Shown: in pieces, positions 2,640-60,256 of the stretch
Numbering within the stretch: the stretch's first letter is position 1
Layout: every line of letters begins with the position of its first letter
NCBI RefSeq assembly: GCF_010730355.1
Contig: NZ_AP022576.1
Coordinates: forward strand, 558,001 to 622,000
Source: Mycobacterium florentinum
GTDB lineage: Bacteria; Actinomycetota; Actinomycetes; Mycobacteriales; Mycobacteriaceae
DNA: 64,000 nucleotides
Reading direction: 5' to 3'
Made by a program: the position numbers and the translations under genes
The notes under the pieces: generated by a model
Seen by the model: the letters and a program-made list of their open reading frames with translations, nothing else
Told to the model about the DNA's origin: nothing
Database searches by the model: none

Positions 2640-3072
2640 TCCCCGGCTATGGCCCTGTTCGAACCGCCGCCAGCGCGCTCGCGCCATGCGGATTGGGCCG
2701 GCGTCTGATCAGGAATGCATCTGACGACAAGCCGCATCACGGATGTTGCTTGTCTAGGACGCCTTGAGGGCAGGTCGAGCCGGGGCGCGGATCGATGCCG
2801 TATACTCAGGCGTCGCCGAAATCCACTGTGCTGCAAGCGAAGTTTGGCGGACTCCCCCGGTGTAATGATCACCGTGAAAATCAGCCGACCGCTGGCGGCG
2901 CGGATACGTATTCGCCAGTGCGCACGATCGCGGCGCCGAGAGACCAGTGATGCTGTGGCGCAACCGGGTTGACGGTGCACCATGACCGTCGCGCCTTCGG
3001 GCTCGGCACACTGAGTGCGCGCCCCAAGGGTCGCGATCGGCTTACTTGCGATCTAGATGAATGGGTTGGTCG
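2640..3072. other. No gene seen
   Basis: Between two convergent micropeptide genes. Open frames on both strands are Arg-rich shadows without ribosome sites. No repeat or hairpin comparable to the neighbours was noticed. Confidence 0.45.
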
Positions 3073-3195
3073 CTATCCGGCGCTGCAGGTGAGTGGGGCG
3101 CAATCGATGGTGAGTGGGATCGTGCACCCTGATGCCGTAAGCGCGGTGAAGCCCAGAATAAGGGCGACGATGAATTTGCTCGTGTGACGTGACAT
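3073..3195 (-). CDS. 40-aa lipoprotein-like micropeptide, copy 5
   Basis: Read on the minus strand the product is MSRHTSKFIVALILGFTALT, then ASGCTIPLTIDCAPLTCSAG. The stretch ALILGFTALTASGCTIPLTID is the same as in copy 4, so copies 4 and 5 are recent relatives in opposite orientation. The tail has two extra Cys. The leader contains a CGTTCG/CGAACG hairpin and a GGGGG box, as before copy 4. Function unknown; probably exported and lipid-anchored. Confidence 0.65.
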   Translation of the reverse strand: MSRHTSKFIVALILGFTALTASGCTIPLTIDCAPLTCSAG

Positions 3196-3452
3196 TCAGT
3201 TCCCCCGTTCGTTTTCCGAACGATCTGTTGCCAGACATATGGATTTGTGTATGCCCGAGTTACCCCGAGGCGCCTGATTCTACGCCGTCAATCCAGCTGC
3301 GCCAAGAGGTTTCGTCGTGTGGAAGACCGTCGCACTGGTGCGTGTTGATCGCGCGAAATGGGGTGTTTTTCCACTACCCCAACGATTTCCGCGTCAACGG
3401 TCCCGGTTGATCGGTTGGACGAGAAACATAGCAAACACATGAAAAGGCATTG
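3196..3452. other. Leader of copy 5 and end of the cyclase gene
   Basis: Contains the minus-strand leader of copy 5 (hairpin around 3201-3217). No other gene seen. Confidence 0.4.
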
Positions 3453-6768: not shown

Positions 6769-8108
6769 GCCATCCGGAACTTGTCGGCCAGTTGCTCGGG
6801 GCCGAGGTCGCCGTAGCGCTCGTGCTCCAGACGCCGGACTGCGACGACCATGTCCAGCGCGGGATCGCCCAGAATACTTCGCAGTAACGCCGAATCATTC
6901 AGTGCGGCAATCGTATCCATCTGAGACCGGGCAAGACTCTCGATGCCGGCGCGCTCCCGCTCGGAATCGGAGAGCTTTGCCGGGTCCACTGTCGTTTCCG
7001 GCGGTAGCGCCGCGTTGCGCCGGATACCGTCGAGTGCCAGCCCGAGGATCGCCGCCGATGCGAGGTACGGGTTCGCCGACGGATCGACGATCTTCACCTC
7101 TACATTTCCCCCGTATGCGCTGCCGGCTCCGCCCTTGACGAAACGCACTGCGGCCTCACGATTCTCGATCCCCCAGCAAGCGTAGGCCCCGGCCCAGTTT
7201 CCCGGCTGCATGCGCAAACCGGACACGATCGACCCGCACAGCACGCCCTGGGCCTCGGGTAAGCCGCGAACCACCCCCGCGAGCGCACTCTGTCCCGCCG
7301 GTGCCATGCCGCCGGGACCCGGTCCGCCGGAAAACAGCGGACCATCGGGGCTTGTCAGCGAGAAGTGTTGGTGTGCACCGGATCCGACACTACCGGCGAA
7401 GGGCACCGGCGACAGGCTGATCCGCAGGCCGTGGCGACGCGCGGCGCGGCCGATGATGATTCGGGTCAGCACCAACTGGTCGGCCGCGGGAACCGGCGCC
7501 AGCGGCGACAACGAGATTTCGAACTGGTTGGCCCCGTACTCGGGATGGAACTGCTCGATCCCCACGCCCGACGCCGCGGCCGCGGCGATGACATCGCGGA
7601 CGAACGCCTCGTGTTCGAGCACACCGGCGAGGCCGTACTGCGCCCACATGGTCGACGGCAGCCGGCCGCCGTCGGGGTCGACCAGAACGAACTCGATCTC
7701 ATGGCCGACGGTGGCCTCGAGGCCGTCGTCGCGCAGGGCGGTCTCGACCCGGCTCAGCGTTCCACGGCCACAGGTGGCGACCGGTGTGCCGTCCTGCTCG
7801 AAGAATGCCGCGGGCGCCCATGCCAATCCGTCGTCGATGATGCGCAGGGCCGACGGGTCGATGCGCACCCGCTGATCGCCGATCACCCCGGCCGACTCGG
7901 TAAAGGCGATGCCGGTCTGGTCGGCGGCGAAGGCATGCCACGACGGGCTGGCACCCAGGCCCGGATCGGCGAAGGTACTGACGTGCCGGATCGGCACGGT
8001 CTTGGCCAGGGTGAGGCCGGCGGGGTTCACGACGGTGCCGATGACGGTGTCAACGCCCTCGGCCTCCAGCTGGGCGACCGCCGCCGCGGCACGGTGCATG
8101 GCCGTCAT
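6756..8108 (-). CDS. glnA3: Glutamine synthetase-like ligase GlnA3
   Basis: Member of the glutamine synthetase superfamily, 450 residues, of the type that ligates glutamate to an amine rather than the housekeeping GlnA1. It shows the GS fold order: an N-terminal beta-grasp part, HEIEFVLVD (metal/glutamate site), GSGAHQHFSLTS, NREAAVRFV and a C-terminal NVEVKIVDPSANPY segment. Position between the Rv1877 remnant and the Rv1879-like gene matches M. tuberculosis glnA3. Actinobacterial relatives include gamma-glutamylpolyamine synthetases; whether this enzyme uses polyamines is inference. Likely co-transcribed with the downstream amidohydrolase. Confidence 0.88.
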   Translation of the reverse strand: MTAMHRAAAAVAQLEAEGVDTVIGTVVNPAGLTLAKTVPIRHVSTFADPGLGASPSWHAFAADQTGIAFTESAGVIGDQRVRIDPSALRIIDDGLAWAPAAFFEQDGTPVATCGRGTLSRVETALRDDGLEATVGHEIEFVLVDPDGGRLPSTMWAQYGLAGVLEHEAFVRDVIAAAAASGVGIEQFHPEYGANQFEISLSPLAPVPAADQLVLTRIIIGRAARRHGLRISLSPVPFAGSVGSGAHQHFSLTSPDGPLFSGGPGPGGMAPAGQSALAGVVRGLPEAQGVLCGSIVSGLRMQPGNWAGAYACWGIENREAAVRFVKGGAGSAYGGNVEVKIVDPSANPYLASAAILGLALDGIRRNAALPPETTVDPAKLSDSERERAGIESLARSQMDTIAALNDSALLRSILGDPALDMVVAVRRLEHERYGDLGPEQLADKFRMAWSL

Positions 8109-8138
8109 CGCAGCCTTACCGGCGGGCGCGGTCGGCGA

Positions 8139-8633
8139 CTACGCCCGGCTGGGCAGGGTCAGCATGCAGGTCTGGCCGATGTCGAGGGTCCGCAGCATCC
8201 GTCCCATGCCGACCCAGAGCGCACAGGACATGGCGAGGTCGGCGAGCAGCTCCTCGGAGAAGTGCTCGTTGGCCCGGGTCCAGAAGTCTTCGTCGTCGCG
8301 CAACTTGGTGTGCTCGGTGCCGAACCGGTGCGCGAACTCGGCCGCCAGCCTTTCCTGCTCGCTGAAACCGGGCCAGGTGCGCCACTCAAGCGCGTGCTCG
8401 TAGAGCTCTTCGTCGACGCCCGCGGCCGGCCCGTCGGCGTCGCGGGTGTTCATGCACACGGTGCATTCGTTGTCGTGGGCGATCACGGCGCGGGCGATTT
8501 CGCGGGTGCGCATCGGCAGCCGGTTCTTGGTGTACACGGCCTGGCTGAAGTTGGCGATCGCGCCACCGAGGTCCGGAGACTTCGTGGCCCAGCTGTAGAT
8601 GTCGTCGTCAGCGAACGTTCCGATTCGGCTCAT
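8139..8633 (-). CDS. Carboxymuconolactone decarboxylase (AhpD-like) family protein
   Basis: A 164-residue alpha-helical protein of the CMD/AhpD family. IAHDNECTVCMNTRDADG carries the CxxC pair (Cys57, Cys60), but the usual His four residues later is Arg64. The redox pair could still work as a thiol peroxidase or disulfide reductase; loss of the His may change proton relay. ATG 8633 is chosen because it begins MSRIGTFADDD without the upstream basic stretch. It sits between glnA3 and the MFS remnant on the same strand, with no counterpart in the M. tuberculosis order I recall. Confidence 0.82.
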   Translation of the reverse strand: MSRIGTFADDDIYSWATKSPDLGGAIANFSQAVYTKNRLPMRTREIARAVIAHDNECTVCMNTRDADGPAAGVDEELYEHALEWRTWPGFSEQERLAAEFAHRFGTEHTKLRDDEDFWTRANEHFSEELLADLAMSCALWVGMGRMLRTLDIGQTCMLTLPSRA

Positions 8634-8675
8634 GGCGTGATGGTACGCCCGAGCGCCCGATTTTTGGAACACGTT

Positions 8676-9437
8676 CTAGTATCGGCCACCGGTACCGGCC
8701 TCAAGCCGGCCGGTGCTGGGCGCGTCGTCGTGCCAATCGCGTTGTGCCAGAACGCGGTGGGCGATGTGCTGCAGCGCGGTTTCGACTTCGCGGCGGTCCG
8801 GCCGGCCCTGATAGCCGGGCGAACGGGACAGCTTGTCGACGATCCAGCCCAGCAGCAACGAATAGACGTAATCGACCTGCTGGGCGCCGGCCGGGGTCAG
8901 CCACATCTGATCGCCGTCGCGCTGCGCGTAGCCGCCCGCGACCAGGCGCCCGAAGGTGGGTTCGAGCATCGCGATGCTGCGCAACCGAACACCGGGGTCA
9001 CCGCGCAGCATTCGCGCAATCGCGTTCTCCAGCAGCCGTTCCGGGGTATCGGTGGTCGGCATCCCGAATCCGTCACCGAGATCGACTGCGCTGTTGTGGA
9101 TGTCACGCAACGGGATCTCCCGCAGGAACAACGCGAGGACAAATCCGAGCAGGGCGACCGGCGCCGCCCAGAAGAACACCTCGGTCAGCGACTCGGAATA
9201 GGCCGCCACAATGGGGGCGGCCACCTCATGCGGCTGGCGATGCAGGGCTCCCGGTGAACTGACCGCCTCGGGTGGTGCGCCGCTTTCCGCCAGCGCCGCG
9301 AGCAGCATCCCCAGCACGATCGCGACGAAGATCAGGTTCCGCCGTTGCGGGGTGATCAGCGCGCCGCTGGCTGCCGGATCCCCGATGACGGGATTGGCTT
9401 GGGTCGCCGCGCTAGATGCCGCTCTCGGGCTCGTCAT
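8676..9437 (-). pseudogene. Internally deleted MFS drug transporter (Rv1877 remnant)
   Basis: Rv1877-type transporters have about 14 membrane helices and nearly 690 residues. Here only 253 residues remain in one open frame. The N-terminus RRNLIFVAIVLGMLLAAL is the family's first helix, but it runs straight into AESGAPPEAVSS, then the last helix (VFFWAAPVALLGFVLALFL) and the cytoplasmic tail (EIPLRDIHNSAVDLGDGFG onward). About a dozen helices are missing without loss of frame. The tail after LRSIAM also looks shortened. It cannot transport as an MFS protein. It may be a neutral remnant or a two-helix protein kept for its C-terminal domain. It lies downstream of bfrA as in M. tuberculosis. Confidence 0.75.
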
Positions 9438-9980: not shown

Positions 9981-10139
9981 GATCACTCCTCCGGTGTCAG
10001 GGCTGTATGTCAGAGCGCGGCATGGGCGCTGGGCTGGAGCGCACCATGCCAGCCGTAGCAGCACTTTGCCACGCAAATTGGAATAGTTCCAGCAAGGTAT
10101 GGCTGCGCTCACTAGCTCAAATAGCAACACGGCGAGTGG

Positions 10140-10158
10140 TTAGGTCCGTCTAACCTAA
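10140..10158. promoter_or_regulatory. IdeR iron box 1
   Basis: TTAGGTCCGTCTAACCTAA matches the mycobacterial iron box TTAGGTTAGGCTAACCTAA at 16 of 19 positions. It lies between bfrA and bfd. Confidence 0.85.
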
Positions 10159-10177
10159 TTAGGCTAGACTTACTTAA
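10159..10177. promoter_or_regulatory. IdeR iron box 2
   Basis: TTAGGCTAGACTTACTTAA matches the same consensus at 15 of 19 and directly abuts box 1. Tandem boxes are known for M. tuberculosis bfrA, where IdeR activates in high iron. Confidence 0.8.
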
Positions 10178-10210
10178 CATGAGGCTTGTCCGCGTCGGTG
10201 AGGTGCGCTG

Positions 10211-10408
10211 ATGTACGTATGCCTGTGCGTCGGTGCCACCAACCACACCGTGGCCGAATGCGTCGCGCGTGGGGCCTCCACTTCCAAGGAGGTGGCCGCG
10301 GCGTGCGGCGCGGGCGGTGACTGCGGACGGTGCCGACGCACGTTGCGGGCGATCATCGAGGCATCGAAGAAACACGAACCCGAGCTGGAATCCGCGGCGT
10401 CGCTCTAG
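10211..10408 (+). CDS. bfd: Bacterioferritin-associated ferredoxin Bfd
   Basis: A 65-residue [2Fe-2S] protein that transfers electrons to bacterioferritin for iron release. Cys4 and Cys6 (CLC) and Cys38 and Cys41 (CGRC) form the Bfd CxC-x31-CxxC cluster motif. Divergent from bfrA with two iron boxes in between, so both are likely IdeR targets. The start ATG 10211 has a modest GTGAGGT ribosome site. Confidence 0.93.
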   Translation: MYVCLCVGATNHTVAECVARGASTSKEVAAACGAGGDCGRCRRTLRAIIEASKKHEPELESAASL

Positions 10409-10423
10409 CCCTGTCGCGTTTCG

Positions 10424-11182
10424 TTAATTCCTTTTTCGCTCAGTGAAATCCGCGAGGGCCGCGGCGTTGGCCTGGGCGCCCATCAGCTCGGCGAAGTGCG
10501 CGTTCTCCCGCGCGGTCGCAGCCACGATCCCGGGCCGAATCGGTTCTGTCATCGTGTGTTTGACCGCCATGAGGCTCGAAACCGGCCGGGAGGCAAGGAT
10601 TTCGGCATACCGACGGGTTTCGTCCAGCAGCTCGTCCGGCTCGCAGACCCGCCAGACCAGGCCCATCCGCAAGGCCTCCTGCGCGTCCACCCACTCCGAG
10701 GACATCAACAACCATGCGGCGTTCTGGCGGCCCACCAACTGCGGCAGCAGGTAGGACGAGGCCGCCTCGGGGGCCACGCCGAGGCTGGTGAACGGGCACT
10801 TCAGCCGGGCGGTCGACGACATGAACGCCAGGTCGGCGTAGCCGAGGATGGTGGCGCCGATTCCCACTCCGATACCGTTCACGGCGCAAATCAGCGGCTT
10901 GGGAAACGCGCTCAGCGCGTCGATCATGCCGGGGAATCCGTGTTTGCCAGGAGTGAAGCCGGGGTCGGTGATGCGGGCCTGCATCTCGGCGAGATCGGTG
11001 CCGGCAGAAAAGCCGCGGCCGGTCCCGGTCAGGACGACGACCGCAACCTCCGGATCGTCGGTGGCGGCCAACAGTGCCTCGGCGGTGGCGTCGTACAGCG
11101 CTTCGTTGAACGCGTTCAGCGCCTCGGGCCGGTTCAGCGTCAGGGTGCGGACCCGGTTGGTGTCATCGATCAGCAGCGTCAC
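10424..11182 (-). CDS. Enoyl-CoA hydratase/isomerase family protein
   Basis: Crotonase-fold enzyme of 252 residues acting on acyl-CoA thioesters. GRGFSAGTDLAEM is the oxyanion-hole segment, AVNGIGVGIGATIL the next core motif, and LGVAPEAASSYLLP carries the second catalytic Glu. The first catalytic Glu of true hydratases (in GGGCEL) is replaced by Thr in IGATIL. A single-Glu site is typical of delta3,delta2-enoyl-CoA isomerases, so isomerase or another crotonase reaction is more likely than hydration. It stands alone, convergent with bfd. Confidence 0.85.
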   Translation of the reverse strand: MTLLIDDTNRVRTLTLNRPEALNAFNEALYDATAEALLAATDDPEVAVVVLTGTGRGFSAGTDLAEMQARITDPGFTPGKHGFPGMIDALSAFPKPLICAVNGIGVGIGATILGYADLAFMSSTARLKCPFTSLGVAPEAASSYLLPQLVGRQNAAWLLMSSEWVDAQEALRMGLVWRVCEPDELLDETRRYAEILASRPVSSLMAVKHTMTEPIRPGIVAATARENAHFAELMGAQANAAALADFTERKRN

Positions 11183-11219
11183 CGCTGCAGCCTAACCTCG
11201 CGACGTCGCCGCCCTGAGC

Positions 11220-11663
11220 TCACCCGTTGCTATAGACGCGGGTTGGTGCGATCAGCACCACGGCGCGACGTTCCAGGGCCATCACCCGGTCGTACTCGTC
11301 CCAGTCGTCGTGGGTTCCGCCGGCGGCGGTGAAGACCTCGCGGAGCAGGAGCCGCAACTGGTCGTCGTCGGCGAGCCACGGCTGCGAGTCGTCGGGGCCG
11401 ACCAGCTCCGCGCGTCCTTCGGCGGTCGCCCACTGCCAGCCGTTGCGGTACGTGACGGCCAGCTGTGGCCGCTCCCGGAGATTGGCGAGCTTTACTTTGC
11501 CGTAGGTGGTGAAGCCGAGCACCGATTCACCCGTCTGCGGGTGCCGTAACAGACCGACATTGACCAGCGACGATTGCACGGTGCTGTCGGCACGGACCGT
11601 CGAGATCACCGCCAGACCGCTTTCCGCCGCCGCCAGCGCCACTGCGTCTTCGAGTGTTGTCAT
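11220..11663 (-). CDS. Split-barrel flavin/F420-binding protein (Rv1875-like)
   Basis: A 147-residue protein of the pyridoxamine-phosphate-oxidase-like split-barrel family that in mycobacteria often binds F420. It shows LAVISTVRADSTVQSSLVN, a typical N-terminal strand pair, and AVTYRNGWQWATAEGRAEL. Length and position match Rv1875 of M. tuberculosis. It follows the Rv1874-like gene by nine bases on the same strand, so an operon is likely. Substrate unknown. Confidence 0.82.
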   Translation of the reverse strand: MTTLEDAVALAAAESGLAVISTVRADSTVQSSLVNVGLLRHPQTGESVLGFTTYGKVKLANLRERPQLAVTYRNGWQWATAEGRAELVGPDDSQPWLADDDQLRLLLREVFTAAGGTHDDWDEYDRVMALERRAVVLIAPTRVYSNG

Positions 11664-11672
11664 TTGCGGTCC

Positions 11673-12374
11673 TCACGTTCGAAAGGCTGCCTTGAATACA
11701 TAGCGGCTGGTCGGTACCGTGTCGATGTTCTCGTTGGCGCCGAATGCGGTTGTGCTGGCGACCATCCGGCCCAGCCGATCCTGCAGGTCGTCATCGTCGG
11801 CGGCCCCGAAAAACGCCTTCAAATCCGTTACCGCTTCGATTGGGAACAACTCCTCCACGATGGCAGCGATTCCCGGCGCGTCGGGAGTCAGTGTTCGCAC
11901 CACCCAGTTCTGGGTGTAGCCGAACGTCGCTTGGGTCTCGATGGCGACCGAGGTCTGGTTGAGTTGCCACCGGTTCAGCCAGGTCGCCTCGTCCAGCTCC
12001 GCGGGCCGGCGCAGCAGCGCAATGTTCGCGAAACCTTCTGTGCGCGAACCGGGCTCGCCGCCCGGTGTGGCCAGCGGAACGGACTCGGTCACCAGGTAGG
12101 CGGCGACCTGTTCGCACTCGGCCTCCAGCAGCTTGAGCGCCGCCGTCATCTGTTCGCCGTAGCACTGCTGCGTCCACATGCTCACCACCGCACCCGCCGG
12201 TGGGTCCATGGTCGTCAGGGTCATCAGCGAGTGCCGCACCGCCGCGTCGCGCACATTGATAGCCAACCCGGGCAGGCCCAGGTCTAACAGCGCGTCCGCG
12301 ATCGGGCCCCGCTGGCGAGCACACCAATCGTCGTCGAAGTCGGCCGTCCGCAGCACCGCGATCACCTTTTCCAT
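11673..12374 (-). CDS. EthD-like conserved protein (Rv1874-like)
   Basis: A 233-residue conserved mycobacterial protein with two related alpha/beta halves resembling EthD or dimeric ferredoxin-like barrels (EKVIAVLRTADFDDDWCARQ and ANIALLRRPAELDEATWLNR). No catalytic motif is recognised. It is the first gene of a probable operon with the Rv1875-like gene. Two 13-bp direct repeats (12405-12449) lie just upstream, shared with the divergent PPE gene. Confidence 0.78.
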   Translation of the reverse strand: MEKVIAVLRTADFDDDWCARQRGPIADALLDLGLPGLAINVRDAAVRHSLMTLTTMDPPAGAVVSMWTQQCYGEQMTAALKLLEAECEQVAAYLVTESVPLATPGGEPGSRTEGFANIALLRRPAELDEATWLNRWQLNQTSVAIETQATFGYTQNWVVRTLTPDAPGIAAIVEELFPIEAVTDLKAFFGAADDDDLQDRLGRMVASTTAFGANENIDTVPTSRYVFKAAFRT

Positions 12375-49538: not shown

Positions 49539-50176
49539 CCGGCCAGCCGGTCGGCCTGCCAGGTGCGCAGCGTTCCACCACCCGCCAACGCCAGAACGGT
49601 GGATTCGCTCGGCATGTCCGTGAATTGTGTTGTTGGATAGCATAATTCGCTGATAGTTGCCCGCGGGGCGGCAATGCTGTCGTCGGCTACCGACCCGGCG
49701 CCCAATTCCACCCGATGCCGCAACAATGGGCGATCGTGCCGGTCGGCGCGTAGCGATCCCGACCAGAAGCCCTCGCGCTCATTGCATCTGCCGATCTGCA
49801 CTCGCTCGCGGAAGCGAACCCGGCCGTCGTCGTGCAGCACCAACACCACCGTCGACATATGCCGCGCATCGGCGGCCACCACAGTCGGCTCCAGATCGAC
49901 GTCGAGAGTTCCGCTCACCTCGATGGTCCAATCGGTATGCGACGTCAGCGTTTTAGCCCCGGGCAAGGCCACGGTGGCAGCCGCGCTGCGTAGCTTCAGG
50001 ACCGCGCTGGCCTCGACGACGACCCGGATGTCGATGGTGTCGCCGCCCAACGGGGTGGCGGCCGCCGACACCAGGTACACCGTGTCGGGTGCGGTGCAGC
50101 GGGCCTGGATCCCACCGCTGCACCGGATGCGCGGCAACCGGTTACGTGCGGCGACCAGCAATACCTCAGAGTGCAT
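49535..50176 (-). CDS. ureD: Urease accessory protein UreD
   Basis: Scaffold (UreD/UreH family) that helps load nickel into urease, 213 residues. Family features: [32 protein letters not shown] and [20 protein letters not shown]. Its ATG overlaps the ureG stop by 11 bases, so the two are coupled. Last gene of the urease set. Confidence 0.9.
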
Positions 50177-50834
50177 CGGCGGCCAGCTGCGCGTGCACCC
50201 AGGCCAGCACCTCGGTGGCAGCCGGATCCTTGGTCAGTGACTGCAGCACGGTCGGCCGGCCGTCTCGCACCGCGTCGGCGTCGCGGGCCATCACATCCAG
50301 GTCGGCGCCCACCAATGGCGCGAGATCAATCTTGTTTACTACCAATAGATCCGAGTACGTCACTCCCGGCCCTCCCTTACGCGGCACCTTGTCGCCGCCG
50401 GCCACATCGATGACGAAGATCTGGACGTCCACCAGGCCCGACGAGAACGTCGCGGTCAGGTTGTCGCCGCCGGACTCGACCAGGATCAGGTCCAGCGTGT
50501 CGTGGGCGGCGATCAAGTCGTCGATCGCATCGAGGTTCGCGGTGATGTCGTCGCGGATCGCGGTGTGCGGGCAGCCGCCCGTCTGCACGGCCGCGATCCG
50601 GTCGTCCGGCAGCACCGCGTGTTTGCGCAAGAAGTCGGCGTCTTCGGTGGTGTAGATGTCGTTGGTCAGCACCGCCACCGACAGCTCATCGCGCAACTGC
50701 CGGCACAGCGCGGCGACGAGTGCGGTTTTTCCGCATCCGACCGGGCCGCCGACGCCGATGCGCAGCGGCTCCCCCGGCTGCCGGACCCGTTTGGGTCGTT
50801 CGATGTGCGGATGGCTGTGCGAATGTGCTGGCAT
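50166..50834 (-). CDS. ureG: Urease nickel-insertion GTPase UreG
   Basis: SIMIBI GTPase delivering Ni to urease, 222 residues. The His-rich N-terminus (HSHSHPH) binds metal; the P-loop is [13 protein letters not shown], the Ni-binding CPH is in [11 protein letters not shown], and [12 protein letters not shown] and [10 protein letters not shown] complete the GTPase. In M. tuberculosis it follows ureF directly. Here 6.4 kb on the other strand separates them, so it needs its own promoter in 50835-50983 or another source. It could also serve the neighbouring Ni-type guanidine hydrolase (inference). Confidence 0.94.
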
Positions 50835-50983
50835 GGCATGTCTTTCGGAGGCGATGGGAATCGTGCGCTCGGCATGATGTCAGGCCAGCGTATCGGCCAA
50901 AGGATGGCCGAGTCAGCCAGGCAGGCGTAGCGCCGCGCAAGCCTTCCCAGGAAAGTCACAGCAGTCTGTCCGCTACCAGAAAC

Positions 50984-51011
50984 TTGAAGTCGAGGATCGA
51001 GCAGGTACGTT
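50984..51011 (+). promoter_or_regulatory. Candidate promoter for the riboswitch transcript
   Basis: TTGAAG at 50984-50989 and TACGTT at 51006-51011 with a 16-base spacer resemble a housekeeping sigma promoter. A start near 51018 would place the aptamer at the very 5' end of the mRNA. Confidence 0.4.
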
Positions 51012-51035
51012 GAAGCATGGCGCGCCGAGACGGCC

Positions 51036-51079
51036 GCCCGGACGAGTTCGCCGTACCCGGAGAGCGACAAGACGGTGAC
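51036..51079 (+). promoter_or_regulatory. Guanidine-III riboswitch aptamer
   Basis: Closely matches the guanidine-III aptamer known from Thermobifida. P1 pairs CCGG (51038-51041) with CCGG (51057-51060). ACGAG follows P1 and a CGCCGT strand (51049-51054) pairs with ACGGTG (51072-51077) as the pseudoknot, six pairs with one G-U. CCGTACCCGG and GACAAGACGG are the conserved stretches. It lies 117 bases before the start of the guanidine hydrolase-like gene. Ligand: guanidinium. Confidence 0.85.
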
Positions 51080-51125
51080 CGCGGGATGCCTTGCGCGCCG
51101 GTCAACCGAAAACGCTTGTTGGAAC

Positions 51126-51130
51126 TCCTC
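51126..51130 (+). promoter_or_regulatory. Possible anti-Shine-Dalgarno segment
   Basis: TCCTC (inside ACTCCTCC) is complementary to GAGGA at 51186-51190 in the ribosome site. It could mask the site when the aptamer is empty. Inference only. Confidence 0.3.
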
Positions 51131-51195
51131 CTTCGTTTGGTCCTGGTCGTCGGGGCATCCTCCACCGTGAGTTGATACTCGACGAGAGGAAAACG

Positions 51196-52359
51196 ATGAT
51201 CAATCCGTTCGCCGGCCAGGCCGATATTCCCAACCGCGAAGGTGCGTGGGCACAGCAAGCCGAGGCTGAGTTGTCGACCCGGCGCCACAAGGAAGAGATC
51301 GAGCGCTGCCTTGCCCACGGGCTGGAAGCGGCGCCCACCATCAACGACCGCACGTTGTCCACCTTTTCCCGCGGTGAGCTGCCGCACTTCGCAGGGGAGC
51401 GCGGCACGTTTCTGAAGTGCCCGTTCCTCGAAGACGTGCACGACGTGGGCGACGCCGAGGTCGCCGTCTTCGGCGCGCCGCTGGACGCGGGTACCACCTA
51501 CCGGCCCGGCACTCGGTTCGGCCCGATGGGAATTCGGCGCTCTACCAACCTGTTTGGGACGTATTGCTACGAGTTGGGTGTCGACTTGCGCGAGCAGCTC
51601 AACATCGTTGACATCGGTGACGTGGTCACGATTCCGGCCAACATCGAGAAGTCGTTCGATCAGATCAGCACGGCCATGTCCCACGTGGTCTCCCAGGGTG
51701 TGTTCCCGGTGATCCTGGGTGGCGATCACTCGATCGGGTTCCCGACCGTGCGCGGTCTCGCCCCGCACATGGACGGCAATGTCGGCATCATCCACTTCGA
51801 CCGTCACGTCGACACCCAGGAAACCGATCTCGACGAGCGGATGCACACCACGCCGTGGTTCCACGCCACCAACATCAAGAACGCGCCCGCCACCAACCTG
51901 GTGCAGATCGGCATCGGCGGATGGCAAGCGCCCCGTGCGGGTGTCGAAGTCGGCCGGAAACGCGGCAGCACGGTGATCACCGTCGGCGACGTCGAGCGCG
52001 TCGGGATCGAGAAGATCGCCGAAATCGCACTTGAGACGGCGTGGAAGGACGCCAAGGCGGTGTATCTCTCGTTCGACATTGACGTGATCGACGCAGGATT
52101 CGTACCGGGCACCGGCTGGCCGGAGCCGGGCGGTCTGCTGCCGCGCGAGGCGCTCAACCTCATCCGGCTGATCTCCGAACCCGGACTCAACGGCATCGAA
52201 GTGGTGGAGTGTTCACCGCCTTACGACTGGGCGGAACAAACCGCGCTGATGAGCAGCCGGGTCATCCTGGACAGCCTGGCCGTCATGGTTCGGGCAGGCA
52301 AACTCGGCAAAAAGCCGGCCGCGCTGAAGCGCCATGCCTGGGGACCCTACGGCGACTGA
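51196..52359 (+). CDS. gdmH: Guanidine hydrolase-like ureohydrolase (GdmH type)
   Basis: Arginase-superfamily enzyme of 387 residues, predicted to hydrolyse guanidine to urea and ammonia. All six metal ligands are present: His178 (GGDHSIG), Asp202/His204/Asp206 (FDRHVDTQ) and Asp294/Asp296 (SFDIDVID). Features of the guanidine hydrolase branch as I recall it are the N-terminal extension with AWAQQAEAE, FDRH in place of FDAH, DERMHTTPWFHATN, GIGGWQ and PGTGWPEPGG. The cyanobacterial enzyme uses nickel and HypA/B-type helpers. A guanidine-III aptamer upstream and urease genes on both sides agree with the substrate. Agmatinase or guanidinobutyrase is the alternative. ATG 51196 follows AGAGGA. 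Confidence 0.85.
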   Translation: MINPFAGQADIPNREGAWAQQAEAELSTRRHKEEIERCLAHGLEAAPTINDRTLSTFSRGELPHFAGERGTFLKCPFLEDVHDVGDAEVAVFGAPLDAGTTYRPGTRFGPMGIRRSTNLFGTYCYELGVDLREQLNIVDIGDVVTIPANIEKSFDQISTAMSHVVSQGVFPVILGGDHSIGFPTVRGLAPHMDGNVGIIHFDRHVDTQETDLDERMHTTPWFHATNIKNAPATNLVQIGIGGWQAPRAGVEVGRKRGSTVITVGDVERVGIEKIAEIALETAWKDAKAVYLSFDIDVIDAGFVPGTGWPEPGGLLPREALNLIRLISEPGLNGIEVVECSPPYDWAEQTALMSSRVILDSLAVMVRAGKLGKKPAALKRHAWGPYGD

Positions 52360-52382
52360 TCAAATTGCCTGTCGTAACTTAA

Positions 52383-52397
52383 CCCGGATGTTCCGGG
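52383..52397 (+). terminator. Hairpin after the guanidine hydrolase-like gene
   Basis: CCCGGA and TCCGGG pair around TGT, 24 bases after the stop. Short, no T-run; possible weak terminator or mRNA end. Confidence 0.4.
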
Positions 52398-52401
52398 ATT
52401 C

Positions 52402-52489
52402 AGGCCAGTGAGCTAATTTGCTCAGTGGCTTAGTAGCAAACCATTTATGGGCTTCTCTACTGAGGGTCTATATTTAGCCGCACTGGCCT
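52402..52489 (+). repeat. 88-nt nested hairpin
   Basis: Nested helices: AGGCCAGTG (52402-52410) with CACTGGCCT (52481-52489), 9 bp; GCTAA (52412-52416) with TTAGC (52474-52478); CTCAGT (52421-52426) with ACTGAG (52459-52464), extendable by two pairs; and inside AGC...GCT plus CCAT...ATGG. May be an RNA control element or a small inverted-repeat mobile remnant. Confidence 0.6.
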
Positions 52490-52866
52490 TGCGCGTACCT
52501 TCAGCGATGCCGAGATGCGCTCTTTAACAGCGCTATACGAGCGCTTCGCCGTCGACGACGTCGCGATGTCCGTTGCTCATACGACATTCTTACGGCCCGC
52601 TGCGCCGCTCTCTAAGGCAAATATATTCATTGCCAGCTTATTCTCAGCAGCTAACCATGGTTATTACAGATATAGCGGCGGATATTGCTATTTGTGCGAC
52701 AACGTCGACATCGCAACGCCGTTTTGTACGTGCGTGCGGTGGCGGTCGCGTGGGGGCATCGCACCATTCGTGCGCGAGCGATCGCGCGCGAACCTGAGCG
52801 TCACACCATCGTCCGATTCGGGCCGGGTGCGGGTGATTTGGCGCGTCGATCGTTGGGGGTTAACTA

Positions 52867-54228
52867 GTGGATTTTGCGGCGCTCCCGCCCGAGGTCAACT
52901 CCGGGCGGATGTACGCGGGCGCGGGGGTCGGGCCCTTGGTCGCGGCCGGTGCGGCCTGGGATGCGTTGGCAGCCGAGTTGAGTTCTGCGGCAGCGTCATA
53001 CCGGACGGTGATGTCGGAGCTCACCGGTGGCCCGTGGGTGGGTCCGTCGTCGGCGACGATGGCGGCCGCAGTGGGGCCGTATGTCTCGTGGATGACTTCT
53101 ACTGCGGCACAAGCCGAACAGACGGCCGACCAGCTCGAGTCGGCAGTCGCAGCCTACGAGGCGGCGTTTGCCGCCACGGTCCCGCCGCCCGAAATCGAGG
53201 TCAACCGGGCGCTGCTGGCGTCATTGGTAGCCACCAACGTAGTCGGGCAGAACACCCCGGCGATCGCGGCCACCGAGGCGCAGTACTCCGAGATGTGGGC
53301 CCAGGACGCCGCGGCGATGTACGGCTATGCCGGCGCATCGGCAACGGCAACGAGGTTGTCACCCTTCAACTCTCCACCGCAGACCACCGACCCCGCCGGT
53401 ACGGCGAAGCAGGCCGCTTCCGTCGACCAGGCCGCGGCGTCCTCGGCGGGGCCGAGCACTCAATCCGCACTGGCCAATGTGCCGAACGCGCTGCAGAGTC
53501 TGTCCACCGGCTCGATCACCAGCCCGACGGACCTCGACCCGGGGCTGGGCAGCCTGCTCGATACTCCCAGCGGGGGTCCGACCGGCCTCAACTTGTTCAC
53601 CCAGAACGTCGGGAACTGGGCCCTGGTCATTAGTGGCCCGCTGTTCACGGCTTCGGGTATCACACCCCTGTTGGGTGGCCTGTACGGCCTCGCGTTGCCG
53701 ACTGCCGCGGCGGTGGCCGGAGACGTCAGTCCGGCCGACGCCGGCCTGGGCACCCTGGTGGATTCGCACGCGTCCGGGGCGGGTTCGGTCTCGGCGAGTC
53801 TGGGCAAGTCGGCCACCGTCGGCGAGTTGTCGGTCCCACGATCCTGGGGCAGTTCCCCCGCCGTCCGGCTGGCCGCCAGCGCATCACCGTTGCCGTCCGC
53901 CGGGCTGGGCGGGGCGCCGCAAGCCGAAATCGCCTCCCCCGGAGGGTTCTTCGGCGGTATTCCCCCGATCGGCAGCCTGGTCAACGCGCCCAGGGGCGAG
54001 CAGACCCGTGCCGGCAGCGACACGGGTCCGAAAGTCATCCCGGCCCTGCCCGGTGAGTCCGGCACTGCCGATCAGGCGCCTGCCGCGCGGCCACCGGCCC
54101 GCCGCCATGTCGCCAGCGCGCTGAGCGAAAGCGAACGTCAGGAGCTGGAAAAGCTGCGCAAGGACATCGCCGATGCGGCGACGGAGCGCGATGCGGCGGC
54201 GCGCCTGATCAAGGAGGCGATGCTGTGA
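52867..54228 (+). CDS. PPE-SVP protein, first of a coupled pair
   Basis: A 453-residue PPE protein from GTG 52867, preceded by GGGGG. It starts with [16 protein letters not shown] and has the helical PPE domain to about 180 with [10 protein letters not shown]. The SVP signature is [14 protein letters not shown] near residue 320. The extreme C-terminus is a predicted coiled coil ([20 protein letters not shown]), unusual beyond the SVP region. No PE partner is adjacent. Its stop overlaps the start of the next PPE gene. Some PPE proteins form outer-membrane solute channels; here guanidine would be the suggested cargo (inference). Confidence 0.88.
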
Positions 54229-55595
54229 CCGTCCCGATGGACTTTGCGGGGACGCCCCCCGAGGTCAACTCGGCGCGGATGTACTCCGGCGCCGGACCGG
54301 GATCGCTGGCGACGGCCGCGGCGGCCTGGGAGAAATTGGCCACCGAATTGAGTTCGACGGCAGCGTCGTACCGCGCGGTGGTGTCTGAGCTGACGGGTGA
54401 GCCGTGGGTGGGCCCGTCCTCGGGCTCAATGGCTGCTGGGGTAGCGCCGTATGTGTCGTGGATGAATAGCGCTGCGGCACAGGCACAGCAGACCGCCAGT
54501 CAGCTTGGGGCGGCGTTGGCAGCGTACGAGGCGGCGTTCGCCGCGACCGTGCCGCCACCGGAGATCGAGGTGAACCGGGCGCTGCTGGCCTCGTTGGTGT
54601 CCTCCAACGCTTTTGGGCAGAACACGCCGGCGATCGCGGCCGTCGAGGCGCAGTATTCCGAAATGTGGGCCCAGGATGCCGCGGCGATGTACGGCTACGC
54701 CGGCGCATCGTCCGCGGCAACGAGGTTGACGGCGTTCGATTCTCCGCCCCAGACCACCGATTCCAGTGGCACCAACAACCAGAACGGCGCGGTCGCCAGG
54801 GCAGCGCTGTCGGGGACCAACCAGAGCGTTCAGTCGACGCTGTCCAGCGTGCCCAGCCTGTTGCAGAAGGCCGCGGCGGGATCACCGTCCGCGACGCCCT
54901 CCACCACGTCCGCGACGTCGGGCGGTTCGCTGCTGGACTTGTTCAATAACTTCAGTGCGAACACCATCGGCTACCAAATCCTCTCCGAGGGTTTGAACTT
55001 CGACGCGTCCGGTACGTTGCTGACCCTCGCGCCGCCGGTGGCCGCTGCCTGGAATCCTTTGGTCAGTTCGCTGTCGGCGCCGGCGACCGCGGCGTCTTCG
55101 GTGTCGGGTTCGGCTTCCACGCTTGCCAATTCGTACGGAGCCTCGGCGGGCCTGGGCAGCGCGGCATCGGTCGGCCAGCTGTCGGTGCCGCAGTCGTGGG
55201 GCGACTCCCCCGCGATCCGGCTGGCCGCCACACAATTTCCCGGCGGCGGCCCGGACAGTCCGCCCCCGACCGGCTCGATCGGTCCGGGTTTCTACGGCGG
55301 CGTGCCCCCGATGGGGCCGGTCGCCAGCGTGGTCAATGCGCCGCGCGGCGACCAGGGCCGCCTTCGAGACGGCAAGGGGCACAAGGCGATTCCTGCGGCG
55401 GCAGCCGAATCGGGCCTGCGGGAGGACCCCGCCGCCCGCTGGGTCGAACCGGCGGCGCCCTCGGACGGCGACGGCGCGGTGAGCGAGCGCGACGAGCTGA
55501 TCCAGCTGCGCAAGGCGATGGCCGATGTGACTAGGCAGCGCGACGTCCTCAAGCGCACGGCAGCGACCTTGATCAAGGAGGCAACGCAGAAGTAG
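54225..55595 (+). CDS. PPE-SVP protein, second of a coupled pair
   Basis: A 456-residue paralogue of the preceding gene. GTG 54225 overlaps the upstream stop (GTGA); ATG 54237 would start at [16 protein letters not shown]. The PPE domain, [14 protein letters not shown] and a C-terminal coiled coil ([20 protein letters not shown]) all recur, so the pair arose by tandem duplication and may form a heteromer through these coils. The amino-acid permease gene follows within 30-60 bases, making a probable three-gene operon. Confidence 0.88.
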
Positions 55596-55623
55596 GGACG
55601 GAACTTCAGGTGCAGAACTCGTT

Positions 55624-57210
55624 TTGGCAATCGACGATTGGAACTCAGCACAGATGTTCTTCACAAAACCAGCCACGCGGTCCTCGCAGCGTTGGGATGG
55701 CGACGTAGTGGTCGACGCGAAACCCGCGGCAGCCCCGATGGATACGGTGGAGGGCTCGCTCGACGACGAGGACCAGGCGCAGCTCAAAGCCCTCGGATTC
55801 CAGTCGGACTTCAAGCGGGACATGAGTCCGTGGGCCAACTTCTCACTGGGCTTCACCTACCTGTCGCCGGTGGTCGGCATCTACACGGTGTTCGCCTTCG
55901 CACTATCGGCCGCCGGCCCACCGATGATTTGGAGCCTGCTGATCGCGGGCGCCGGGCAGATGCTGGTCGCACTGGTGTTCAGCGAAGTGGTGGCTCAGTT
56001 CCCGGTGGCGGGCGGCGTCTATCCCTGGGCACGACGGTTGTGGGGACGCAAGTGGGCGTGGATGACCGGATGGGTTTACATGTTCACGCTGTTGGCCCTG
56101 CTGGCCGACGCCGCCTATGGCGCCGGGCCGTATGTTGCAGATGTGTTCGGCTTCGCACCCTCGCCACACGCCACGGTCTTGTGCGCGCTCGTCATGCTGG
56201 CGCTGGCGACGACCATCAACCTCACCGGCACCAAGATGCTGGGCTACTTCGCCATATTCGGGTTCAGCGCCGAGCTGATCGGCGCTCTGGCCGTGGGTGT
56301 CTGGCTGCTGTGCACCCAACGCCACCACGGGCTTGGGGTGCTGTTCCACAGCTTCGGCGCCGAGGGTCATCACAGCTATACCTACGCCTTCCTGGCCGCC
56401 AGCCTGATTGCCCTGTACCAGTTCTTCGGCTTCGAGGCGTGCGGCGACGTCGCCGAGGAGGTGCGCAATCCCGGCGTGCAAATCCCGAAGGCGATGCGCC
56501 GCACCATCTACATCGGCGGTTCGGCGGCCACGTTCGTCTGCCTGAGCCTGATCTTGTCGGTGACCGACTTCTCAGCGGTGATCAGCGGCAAGGACGCCGA
56601 TCCGATTGACACCATCCTGAAAACGGCGTTCGGCGGCATCGGCGCCAAGGTCGTTCTGTGCATCGTGCTGATCTCGTTCGTGTCATGTGCGCTGAGTCTG
56701 CAGGCCGCGGCCAGCCGGCTGATCTACTCCTACGGCCGTGACGACATGATCGTCGGCTCGAAGCTGTTGGCGCGCTTCGACCACAAACGCCACGTGCCGC
56801 CTTTCGCACTGCTCATCGCGGTCATCATTCCGGCGTTCTTGATCATCGGATCACTGATTTCCAGCGACGCGCTCACCAAGCTCGTCAGCTTCGGTTCGGT
56901 CGGCGTCTACATCGCCTTCCAGATGGTGGTGCTGGCCGCCCTGCGCGCCAGGATCAAAGGCTGGGTACCGACCGGCAAGTACCGGCTGGGCCGCTGGGGC
57001 ATACCCGTCAACATCGGCGCAATGATCTACGGCGTCGCGGCCATCGTCAATCTGTCCTGGCCGCGGGACTCTCACCAGCCCTGGTACGACGACTACATCA
57101 TTGCGCTCATGTCGGTGATCATTATCGGGCTCGGCATTGTGTACCTCGTCTTCACCCGGGCCCACACCAAGAGTGACGCACCGCACGCCGACGCCATTCC
57201 TAAACCGTAA
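55624..57210 (+). CDS. APC-family amino acid/amine permease
   Basis: Inner-membrane secondary transporter of the APC superfamily, about 12 helices. From TTG 55624 it has 528 residues; ATG 55654 (MFFTKPATR) is an alternative and the choice is uncertain. The cytoplasmic N-terminus is about 70 residues. PWANFSLGFTYLSPVVGIY is helix 1, and DVAEEVRNPGVQIPKAMRRT is the family signature, as in GABA and choline-type permeases. Downstream of two PPE genes and a guanidine hydrolase-like gene, it is a plausible guanidinium importer; a related cation or amino acid is also possible. Its end is 21 bases from the convergent ureF. Confidence 0.88.
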   Translation: MAIDDWNSAQMFFTKPATRSSQRWDGDVVVDAKPAAAPMDTVEGSLDDEDQAQLKALGFQSDFKRDMSPWANFSLGFTYLSPVVGIYTVFAFALSAAGPPMIWSLLIAGAGQMLVALVFSEVVAQFPVAGGVYPWARRLWGRKWAWMTGWVYMFTLLALLADAAYGAGPYVADVFGFAPSPHATVLCALVMLALATTINLTGTKMLGYFAIFGFSAELIGALAVGVWLLCTQRHHGLGVLFHSFGAEGHHSYTYAFLAASLIALYQFFGFEACGDVAEEVRNPGVQIPKAMRRTIYIGGSAATFVCLSLILSVTDFSAVISGKDADPIDTILKTAFGGIGAKVVLCIVLISFVSCALSLQAAASRLIYSYGRDDMIVGSKLLARFDHKRHVPPFALLIAVIIPAFLIIGSLISSDALTKLVSFGSVGVYIAFQMVVLAALRARIKGWVPTGKYRLGRWGIPVNIGAMIYGVAAIVNLSWPRDSHQPWYDDYIIALMSVIIIGLGIVYLVFTRAHTKSDAPHADAIPKP

Positions 57211-57231: not shown

Positions 57232-57867
57232 TCAAGAACTAAACAGAGGTCGCTCGCGTTCGATGTGACGCTGGGCCAAGGTATCGAGCAGCGGGTCCGA
57301 CAAGTCGGCCAGGCCGGCGGTTGCCTCGCTGGCGGTGCCCTCACACACCCGGGCCAGCCGGAACGTGCATGCAGCCACGTCGGCAGGATCCAGGGCCAGC
57401 AGCCGCTGACCCGCGGTCGCCGAGCCCGTCATCGTGGTGTAGACGATCGCCAGCGCCCCCTGCTCGGGAGACAGACCGCTCACGGCGCCGACCCGCCCGG
57501 CCGCGACCGCCAGGTGCGGATAGACCCCGAGATCGTCCCAGCCGGCGTCGGGCCAGACCCGTCGTGCCAGCCTCGCCAACCCGCGGCCCTGGCTGCGTGA
57601 CGCCTGCCGGGCCGCCGGCGCCGGTGTGCGGGCGTCGGCCTCCTGATCGGCGCGCTCGGGGTCGAGCTCACCACGATGAACAGCCGCCGCGATCGACGCC
57701 GTGACCAACCCGTGGCTGCGAATTCTGCGGCGCAAGAAGGCTTCCAGCGTGTCCAGGTTGGTCACCAGGCCGCTGGCTACGGCCTCCTCCACGCCGCCGG
57801 AATGCACGTGGGCGCCGGCCGGCAGTCGAGAATCGGCCAGGATGAGCAGCGTCGCCAGTGCAGACAT
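57232..57867 (-). CDS. ureF: Urease accessory protein UreF
   Basis: Helical accessory protein that works with UreD and UreG in nickel insertion, 211 residues, the same length as the M. tuberculosis protein. LLILADSRLPAGAHVHSGGVEEAV is the conserved N-terminus; GLADLSDPLLDTLAQRH the C-terminus. ATG 57867 lies five bases after the ureC stop. Last of the ureABCF block; ureG and ureD lie 6.4 kb away. Confidence 0.93.
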   Translation of the reverse strand: MSALATLLILADSRLPAGAHVHSGGVEEAVASGLVTNLDTLEAFLRRRIRSHGLVTASIAAAVHRGELDPERADQEADARTPAPAARQASRSQGRGLARLARRVWPDAGWDDLGVYPHLAVAAGRVGAVSGLSPEQGALAIVYTTMTGSATAGQRLLALDPADVAACTFRLARVCEGTASEATAGLADLSDPLLDTLAQRHIERERPLFSS

Positions 57868-57872
57868 ACGAG

Positions 57873-59597
57873 TCAGAACAGGAAGTACCGTTGTGCCATC
57901 GGAAGTTCGGCTGGTGGTTGCTCCTGCCACACCTCGCCGTCGATGCGCACGGTGAAGGTATCGGGATCCACTTCGATGTCGGGCAGCGCATCGTTGAGCG
58001 GCAGCGAGGCCTTGCCGAGCCCCGCGGTATTCCGTACCGGGACCAATCGCCGGTTGACTGAGAGCTTTTCGGCCAGGCCCGCCTCGATGGCCTGTGGCGC
58101 GACGAAATGCACCGACGTGGCGGCTGCCGCTGCCGGGGCGGCGCCGAACATCGGACGTGGCAGCACCGGTTGGGGCGTCGGGATCGAGGCGTTGGCGTCA
58201 CCCATTGCGGCCCAGGCGATCATGCCGCCCTTGAGCACCGCGTGCGGGCGGATCCCGAAGAACGCCGGTTCCCACAGCACGAGATCGGCCAGCTTACCCA
58301 CTCCGACCGAGCCGATCTCACCGTCGAGTCCATGCGCAATGGCCGGGCAGATCGTGTATTTGGCGATGTAGCGACGCACTCGCAGGTTGTCGGACCCGGC
58401 GTTGTCGCCGGGCAGCGCTCCGCGCCGGCGTTTCATCACGTGCGCGGTCTGCCAGGTGCGCAGCACCACTTCCCCGATGCGGCCCATCGCCTGCGAGTCG
58501 CTTCCGATCATCGAGATCGCGCCGATGTCGTGCAGCAGGTCTTCGGCCGCCATCGTCGACGGCCGAATCCTGCTCTCGGCGAAGGCCAGATCCTCGGGCA
58601 CCTGAGGGTTGAGGTGATGGCAGACCATCAACATGTCGAGGTGCTCATCGAGGGTGTTCAGCGAGTGCGGCCGGGTCGGGTTGGTGGAACTGGGCAGTAC
58701 ATTCGGCTGGCCGGCAACCCGGATGATGTCGGGCGCGTGGCCACCGCCGGCGCCCTCGGTGTGATACGTGTGGATCGAACGGCCGGCGATCGCGGCCAGC
58801 GTGTCTTCGACGAAGCCCATCTCGTTGAGCGTGTCGGTGTGCAACGCCACCTGCACCCCGGCGGCGGCGGCGACGGTGAGGCAGGCGTCGACGGCCGCGG
58901 GGGTGGATCCCCAATCCTCATGCAGCTTGAAACCCGATGCGCCGCCGCGTAATTGCTCCCAGAGCGCCTCTGAATTGACGGTGTTGCCCTTGCCCAGCAA
59001 CGCGAAGTTCACCGGCCACCCGTCGAGCGCCTCGAGCATGCGGGCCAAGTGCCAGGAGCCCGGGGTCACGGTGGTGGCCTTGCTGCCCTCGGCGGGACCG
59101 GTGCCGCCGCCCAGGATCGTCGTGATCCCGGAGCCGAGCGCCTCGGACATCAGCTGCGGGCAGATCAGATGCACATGGCAGTCGACGGCGCCCGCCGTGA
59201 CGATGCGGCCATTGCCCGCGATGACTTCGGTGCCGGGCCCGACCACCAGGTCCGGATGCACACCCGCCATGGTGTCGGGGTTGCCGGCCTTGCCCAGAGC
59301 GACGATCCGGCCATCGCGAATGCCGATGTCGGCCTTGATGATTCCCCAATGATCGATGATCACGGAACCGGTGATCACGGTGTCGGGCGCACCTTCGGCT
59401 CGGGTGGCGCGGCCCTGGCCCATTGATTCGCGCAGTACCTTGCCGCCGCCGAACACCGCCTCGTCGCCGGCGGATCCCGGTCCCCCGCTGCGGTCTTCGG
59501 TGATCTCGATCAATAAGTCCGTGTCGGCCAGCCTGATTCGGTCGCCGGTAGTCGGGCCGTACAGCTGGGCGTATTGCAGCCGGGACAGTTGCGCCAT
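57873..59597 (-). CDS. ureC: Urease alpha subunit UreC
   Basis: Catalytic subunit of nickel urease, 574 residues, hydrolysing urea to ammonia and carbamate. Ni ligands and active residues are present: His pair in DCHVHLICP, the carbamylated Lys in [44 protein letters not shown] (active-site flap His) and the Asp ligand in [10 protein letters not shown]. Overlaps ureB by one base. Urea could come from the adjacent guanidine hydrolase-like enzyme. Confidence 0.97.
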
Positions 59598-59908
59598 CAG
59601 GTATCCAGTCGTCCGGGAGGGTCCAGGCTCAGGCCATACACCTCGCGGCTTCCGCGCAACGGCACCAGCTGAACATGTTGGGGCACACCGGGTTCAAAGC
59701 GGATCGCAGTGGCGGCCGGTATATCGAGGCGGTAACCACGGGCTGCCGCGCGATCGAACGACAGCGCCGAGTTGGCTTGCGGCAGGTGGACATGGCTGCC
59801 GACCTGGACCGGGCGGTCTCCGGTGTTCACGATCTCCATGTTTATCCGCGGCGCGCCCGCGTTGACCTCGATATCACCGCTGCCATAGAGGATTTCGCCG
59901 GGAATCAT
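59597..59908 (-). CDS. ureB: Urease beta subunit UreB
   Basis: Structural subunit of urease, 103 residues, starting [20 protein letters not shown] with the conserved [19 protein letters not shown]. Overlaps ureA by four bases and ureC by one, so ureABC are translationally coupled. Confidence 0.96.
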
Positions 59909-60207
59909 AGGATCGGGTGGTGGACGGTGACCAGCTTCGTGCCGTCCGGAAACGTCGCTTCCACCTGCACGTGGTCGAGCATCTCCGGTACTCCTTCCAT
60001 CACGTCGTCGCGACTCAATACCTCGCAGCCGCTGGTCATCAGCTCGCTCACGGTGCGGCCGTCGCGCGCGCCCTCGAGGATGTGGTCGGTGATGAGCGCG
60101 ACGGCTTCGGGATGGTTGAGCGGTAGGCCGCGGGCACGGCGGCGGCGAGCCAATTCGGCGGCGTAGGACAGCAGGAGTAGCTCCTGCTCGTGCGGCGTCA
60201 GGCGCAT
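59905..60207 (-). CDS. ureA: Urease gamma subunit UreA
   Basis: Structural subunit of urease, 100 residues, starting [42 protein letters not shown] and [19 protein letters not shown] are the family motifs. ATG 60207 gives the same length as in M. tuberculosis. First urease gene; the thioesterase-like gene lies 49 bases upstream on the same strand. Confidence 0.96.
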
Positions 60208-60256
60208 GCTCTGCGATCCTGCCACGCCATCCTTGGGAATTCCCTGTGACGGCGTG

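Follow-up and report, generated by a model that had tools for sequence, protein, structure and literature searches.

The closest described counterparts of the locus reported here, a guanidine-related gene block at the urease genes of Mycobacterium florentinum, are the guanidinase operon of Nitrospira inopinata and the Sll1077/GdmH operon of Synechocystis. The former comprises a guanidine-I riboswitch, an APC permease and the guanidinase, with urease as the next step (PMC11410670), and the latter combines a guanidine-I riboswitch with an ABC importer and nickel chaperones (PMC12186494). The ykkC-III motif was recorded in the leaders of emrE and speB genes, a speB-type gene following the motif being noted in 2010, when its ligand was still unknown (PMC2864571). 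In M. tuberculosis, PPE51 and the channel protein PPE64 have been linked to the passage of nutrients through the outer membrane (PMC12802285; PMC13315784). The block lies in a 64,000-nucleotide stretch (contig NZ_AP022576.1, positions 558,001 to 622,000), here called the window; coordinates count from its first letter. From ureG toward ureF, the plus strand carries a Guanidine-III aptamer, the guanidine hydrolase gene gdmH, two PPE genes (PPEa and PPEb), and an APC permease gene. Based on the evidence below, this block is probably a guanidine nitrogen-assimilation module that includes a separable PPEa–PPEb–permease transport cassette.

Like the N. inopinata operon, the block pairs an enzyme of the same clade with an APC permease as predicted importer and with urease as the next step; for the permease, the likeness is one of family (APC) and not of direct sequence comparison. 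Unlike that operon, it has a class III instead of a class I riboswitch, its permease does not precede the enzyme, and it is lodged in the urease operon or next to it; the term PPE is absent from the main text of PMC11410670. With Synechocystis the block shares a GdmH with the same specificity residues, whereas the ABC transporter and nickel chaperones of that operon are not among the block open reading frames (ORFs) scanned. Like PPE51 and PPE64, PPEa and PPEb belong to a family tied to small-molecule passage through the outer membrane. They differ in forming a tandem PPE–PPE pair tied to one enzyme and one permease, with no PE domain among the eight block and flank ORFs scanned (short ORFs were outside the scan). 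The excerpts of the ykkC-III report (PMC2864571) mention neither a PPE nor a urease context for the speB record.

The preliminary description of the window knew of no published mycobacterial guanidine system that uses PPE proteins. The combination of GdmH, APC permease and urease is already known from N. inopinata (PMC11410670); the PPE part is new. By title and abstract, none of the top matches listed in a search of mostly open literature dealt with a guanidine system of mycobacteria that involves PPE proteins. As far as this literature goes, three elements are new: the membership of a PPE pair in a guanidine module, the repeatedly rearranged position of that pair at the urease locus, and the swapping of one transport unit between two guanidine pathways.

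Conservation of the block at urease loci

In a survey of 396 genomes of the genus, gdmH was matched in 87 (E <= 1e-60) and a Guanidine-III aptamer in 222 (E <= 0.001). The gdmH genes fall into a clade A of 28 genomes, including that of the window, with 92–100% identity, and 59 others, namely 56 at 80–86% (clade B), two at 55%, and one at 38%. Among the members of clade A, a group of slow-growing mycobacteria, are M. sherrisii, M. ahvazicum, M. montefiorense, M. interjectum, M. szulgai, M. scrofulaceum, and M. persicum. In addition to the window, 27 loci of clade A were read, as were 33 of the 59 other gdmH loci.

PPEa is the next gene after gdmH in all 27 clade A loci, and the order gdmH–PPEa–PPEb–permease holds in all of them as far as the contigs reach; the permease is in view in 24, the remaining three stopping at contig ends. 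This recurrence excludes a chance arrangement, and it bears out the earlier expectation that the genes would be co-conserved in related genomes. Of the 27 loci, 26 have urease genes in view, in varying positions relative to the block. In nine loci, as in the window, the block follows ureG and lies on the other strand, and in two others only the ureF side is visible; in six the block is divergent from ureA and the urease operon is intact, in eight it lies upstream of ureA and is co-directional, and in one it lies between ndh and ureD, a further locus being of unclear layout. The block and the urease genes thus stay linked while their arrangement changes, with at least four layouts around the urease operon. 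At the genome level, ureC is present in all 28 clade A genomes and in 86 of the 87 gdmH genomes (the exception is G369), versus 179 of the 309 genomes that lack gdmH (Fisher p 2e-16, uncorrected for kinship).

Outside clade A, neither these PPE genes nor urease genes were found near gdmH in any of the 33 loci read, some of which are short. Instead, 24 of the 33 contain a sodium/solute symporter gene (PF00474), usually adjoining and divergent from gdmH, which likely represents another type of guanidine transporter; one of these non-clade-A loci (L061) also has a nitrilase-family gene downstream, and loci L072–L075 contain an APC permease.

Several individual loci deserve mention. On an M. sherrisii contig (L033), a second PPEa–PPEb pair (6697–9428) lies directly upstream of gdmH, at the place expected for ureG; neither ureG nor ureD was seen within the retrieved stretch. 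In L050 (genome G261), the two PPE proteins cluster with those of the co-directional loci, while the permease falls into the set of the window on a long branch, a pattern possibly caused by recombination within the block. A 3.2 Mb genome without a gdmH match (G089) has a permease piece (74% identity, residues 321–527) just beside ureC (C80:8686-9309 and 9993-11720), perhaps a decayed remnant of the block. Finally, an 84% identical GdmH is encoded on a contig labeled Myxococcales (L129), reflecting either transfer or a mislabeled bin.

A second guanidine pathway beside the same putative transport genes

We searched 297 genomes for PPEb, scoring the best five candidates per genome, and all 396 for the permease. 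Four genomes without gdmH (G233, G269, G283, and G290; loci L172–L175) were found to carry PPEa–PPEb–permease, with a permease about 90% identical to that of the window. In all four, a TetR gene is divergent from the three transport genes and a gene for allophanate hydrolase (a single unbroken tblastn match in L172 and L174) lies on its far side. In G233, G283, and G290, this gene is followed by a carboxylase gene and by DUF1989 genes resembling carboxyguanidine deaminase, which completes the cluster; the contig of G269 ends inside the allophanate hydrolase gene, and its deaminase-type genes lie on a separate contig. The carboxylase matched TIGR02712 with 1733 bits in the two that were scanned. 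The deaminase-type family TIGR03425 scored over its cut-off in all four genomes, adjoining the carboxylase in three, and the DUF1989 pair was read in one locus; the genome of the window gave no TIGR03425 match.

An Asp at the position of residue 1330 of the Kluyveromyces lactis enzyme is the published mark that separates guanidine carboxylases from urea carboxylases. It is present in all three readable loci (G269 is not among them), and an Asp at K. lactis position 1584 was judged on one locus, from a PDB alignment and a truncated consensus line. These relatives seem to use the guanidine carboxylase pathway (carboxylase, CgdA/CgdB, and allophanate hydrolase), which acts on the same substrate as GdmH. 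The guanidine carboxylase route makes no urea, and ureC (E <= 1e-100) is absent from all four genomes. Neither the four loci nor their upstream stretches contain a Guanidine-III match over threshold.

In a permease tree rooted on other kin of the permease, the carboxylase-linked sequences form one clade (100/98) that joins the group of the window (100/100), inside the gdmH-linked set. A PPE tree made by a quick method also placed them in the gdmH-linked set without resolving the order, and is compatible with the permease tree. The simplest reading is that a urease-less lineage retained the transport unit but switched to another enzyme. This natural swap is the strongest of the new lines of evidence. 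Because one transport unit serves two unrelated guanidine routes, its context points to guanidine, not urea, as the cargo.

Identity of the encoded proteins

The closest PDB match of GdmH is 9fek (504 bits), the N. inopinata guanidinase (PMC11410670), followed by Synechocystis GdmH (7esr/7oi1, 489 bits), the next-best ureohydrolase reaching 160 bits. The six metal ligands of the ureohydrolase site, which the preliminary description had read from the sequence, are all present (H178, D202, H204, D206, D294, and D296). Guanidinases are recognized by Thr, His, and Trp at N. inopinata positions 105, 222, and 313 plus Glu 344 (PMC11410670); mapped by hand onto the 9fek alignment, whose chain numbering is offset by 2, the corresponding residues are T101, H217, W308, and E338. 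Metal and specificity motifs are kept in all 27 clade A rows (the window and 26 others, the partial L058 excluded). The protein stayed below the curated agmatinase cut-offs (TIGR01230, 163 bits vs 174; NF002564, 203 bits vs 302). By its family and specificity residues, GdmH is predicted to hydrolyze guanidine to urea and ammonia, and urease is the step after GdmH in the pathway. As start codon, ATG 51196 is preferred over the start of the longest ORF at 51091, since the Shine-Dalgarno sequence ACGAGAGGA and an in-register ATG/GTG/TTG are kept in 27 of 27 leaders.

PPEa and PPEb both scored above the gathering scores of the PPE and PPE-SVP domains, and their reading frames overlap by 4 bases, in keeping with the earlier account of two coupled PPE-SVP genes. 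The permease, recognized before as an APC protein, does match that superfamily (Table 1); its best NCBIfam match is TIGR03428, permease of a urea carboxylase system, with 225 bits, under the cut-off of 740.

Sharing of nickel handling between UreG and GdmH had also been suggested, and this idea found no support. HypA is present in the genome of the window and in 12 of 14 genomes checked, and absent from G007 and from the gdmH-bearing G250 (M. montefiorense), which decides nothing.

Riboswitch leader and expression of the PPE unit

The guanidine-III-like aptamer reported for the window was recovered by RF01763 over the full model (1–67) with 49.0 bits (gathering score 36, E 1.1e-7), and it is the only Guanidine-III match in the 6.22 Mb genome. 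Long core segments of the aptamer are without any change in 27 of 27 leaders (the window and 26 loci). In the putative expression platform, GGATGCC (51084–51090) can pair with GGCATCC (51154–51160), and TCCTC (51158–51162) can pair instead with the Shine-Dalgarno GAGGA (51186–51190). The first helix can form in 94.7% of 187 cells across the 27 leaders, compared with 41–51% for slid versions; this count concerns GGATGCC:GGCATCC only, the TCCTC:GAGGA pairing lying outside it. Covariation in the helix is slight, with changes on both sides at one pair only, and minimum-energy folding of the leader was no better than that of shuffled sequences (z -0.62). These complementarities are suggestive of a leader that may switch between the platform helix and masking of the ribosome-binding site. 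An ORF right after the aptamer (window 51087 onward) was considered as a leader peptide and rejected, as the leader alignment contains one-base indels there.

A conserved stretch, AGGAAAGTCACAGC-GTCT, precedes the aptamer (about 50947–50973 in the window). It occurs in the loci of ureG-side and ureA-divergent layout, not in the co-directional ones, and may be the remnant of a urease promoter at the junction.

About 507 bp separate gdmH from PPEa in the window (449–811 bp across the window and 27 loci), and the block is therefore not one tightly packed run. The alignment of these gaps revealed two conserved elements: a dyad, TTTGCT-N12-AGCAAA (52417–52440), and a CAGC-AATTC-CAG-TTAACCA-like element (52634–52657) about 210–230 bp before PPEa. 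The second occurs once in the genome (control 0), and a diverged form is found upstream of PPEa in all four carboxylase-linked loci. Having a conserved upstream element of its own, the PPE unit may have its own start.

Proposed function and alternatives

In the proposed module, the PPEa/PPEb pair would most likely serve the passage of guanidine through the mycolic acid outer membrane, and the APC permease would carry the guanidinium cation across the inner membrane. Guanidine in the cytosol would bind the Guanidine-III leader, freeing the ribosome-binding site of gdmH; GdmH would then convert guanidine to urea and ammonia, and the adjacent urease would break down the urea. The three transport genes would act as a cassette, joined in the four ureC-less relatives to the guanidine carboxylase route. 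A full path of this kind had been put forward in the preliminary description; co-conservation and the PPE–permease unit beside a second guanidine pathway support it, and we infer the transport steps. A more specific model, in which the tandem PPE pair makes up or controls a dedicated passage through the outer membrane that hands guanidinium to one particular permease, and in which this two-membrane cassette has been swapped between two unrelated pathways according to the urease status of the host, has in our judgment an even chance of being right.

For mycobacteria, it is still an open question which cargo single PPE proteins carry and how these proteins are linked to transport across the inner membrane. 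The present locus ties a PPE pair to one permease and, via two unrelated enzymes, to one chemical, which makes the cargo directly testable, and the natural swap separates guanidine from urea as that cargo. If the proposal is true, genome context would reveal the cargo of a PPE system, and nontuberculous mycobacteria would be able to live on guanidine nitrogen via urease.

A number of observations weigh against this interpretation. In L040, L041, and L048, PPEa is short or split, with PPEb short as well in L048, and in L047 the permease is spread over two frames. MspA-family genes occur in 22 of 28 clade A genomes, so that the PPE route need not be the sole one. With its own upstream element, the PPE unit need not be part of a single riboswitch-controlled operon, nor need the aptamer control the PPE and permease genes. 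We also read 26 loci of other species, part of those listed, that encode permease kin at 63–79% identity. Their neighbors, named from one representative each, are glutamine synthetase-like (24 of 26), peptidase C26 (23), GntR (21), aldehyde dehydrogenase (14), and P450 (11) genes, neighborhoods that we take to resemble clusters for the breakdown of secondary amines. The permease family would accordingly comprise amine/cation carriers at large and not guanidine carriers only, guanidine as cargo being suggested by context. Finally, the gdmH-linked set of the PPE tree also takes in the PPE pairs of L176, L178, and L179, and neither gdmH nor a guanidine carboxylase gene was found next to those of L178 and L179.

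These points bear on the alternatives to different degrees. It is doubtful that the PPE genes are hitchhikers, that is, a pair with an unrelated surface role that landed near gdmH. PPE families are large, PPE genes are damaged in 3 of the 27 loci, and related pairs occur at other loci, some of them within the PPE tree set described above, as this alternative would have it; against it stands a gene order kept through at least four layouts and found again in the four carboxylase-linked loci, together with the lack of PPE genes near the permease kin outside guanidine contexts (0 of 26 loci). We consider it unlikely that the permease imports another amine or guanidino compound (methylguanidine, agmatine, or a cyclic amine), or that GdmH clears toxic guanidine instead of feeding on it. 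The amine-like neighborhoods of the permease kin fit the former and the control of exporters by many guanidine riboswitches (PMC12186494) the latter, whereas the block yielded no gene for amine degradation (ORF list and Pfam scan), guanidine riboswitches answer to guanidine and near analogues (PMC12186494), and both the urease coupling and the swap to a carboxylase–deaminase–allophanate hydrolase route fit a gain of nitrogen from guanidine. That the PPE–permease unit imports urea or serves urease generally, its tie to gdmH being secondary, is very unlikely: urease genes do flank the block in 26 of 27 loci and the below-cut-off TIGR03428 match is named for a urea carboxylase system, but four genomes keep the unit without ureC, beside carboxylases with Asp-1330 (3 of 3 readable) and deaminase-type genes.

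We also considered the PPE pair as a replacement for a missing MspA porin. Given the counts of MspA-family genes (besides clade A, all 4 carboxylase-linked genomes and all 31 of the other gdmH genomes that were searched), this idea is weakly supported at best.

Related loci, coordinates, and flanking genes

L176 belongs to G007, which has neither gdmH nor ureC and whose contigs are too broken for the full arrangement; it shows deaminase-type matches and a PPE fragment with a 79% identical permease next to it. Near the PPEa/PPEb pair of L178 lie an APC permease of weak similarity and a 2-oxoglutarate oxygenase (3060–4082, minus strand). The best PDB match of this oxygenase is 9ovh (210 bits), named ethylene/succinate-forming enzyme, and it scores only 61 bits against 5lsq, the ethylene-forming enzyme that has been studied in detail. 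Since guanidine is released by ethylene-forming enzymes (PMC12186494), the gene could be a link to guanidine production; coincidence is equally possible. An RNA-family scan of L212–L215, L178, and L179 gave no match. In L190 and L199, the permease orthologue has an ammonium transporter gene in its vicinity (the family was read in L190).

The features of the window are collected in Table 1, which bears out the location between ureF and ureG given earlier. The ureC, ureB, and ureA genes were named from sequence and served as survey queries; they were not part of the Pfam scan.

Table 1. Features of the guanidine block and its urease flanks in the window
Feature	Position	Strand	Basis
Guanidine-III (ykkC-III) riboswitch aptamer	51019..51081	+	Rfam RF01763
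Probable expression platform	51082..51195	+	alternative pairings in leader
gdmH, Ni-type guanidine hydrolase, 387 aa	51196..52359	+	PF00491, closest PDB matches, key residues
Intergenic stretch with two conserved elements	52417..52670	+	gap alignment, window + 27 loci
PPEa, PPE-SVP protein, 453 aa	52867..54228	+	PF00823 225 bits; PF12484 24.6 bits, cut-off 23
PPEb, PPE-SVP protein, 456 aa	54225..55595	+	PF00823 213 bits; PF12484 36 bits
APC-superfamily permease, 528 aa	55624..57210	+	PF13520 149 bits
ureG, urease Ni GTPase, flank	50166..50834	-	TIGR00101 279 bits, cut-off 204
ureF, flank	57232..57930	-	PF01730 75 bits, cut-off 23
ureC, ureB, ureA	57873..60225	-	ORFs 57873-59597, 59597-59908, 59905-60225

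Antisense to ureC, a match to 5_ureB_sRNA (RF02514) was found at 59144–59430 on the plus strand, with 51.2 bits against a threshold of 40. Since this family originates from Helicobacter urease, the match is probably due to conservation of the urease coding sequence rather than to an RNA gene.

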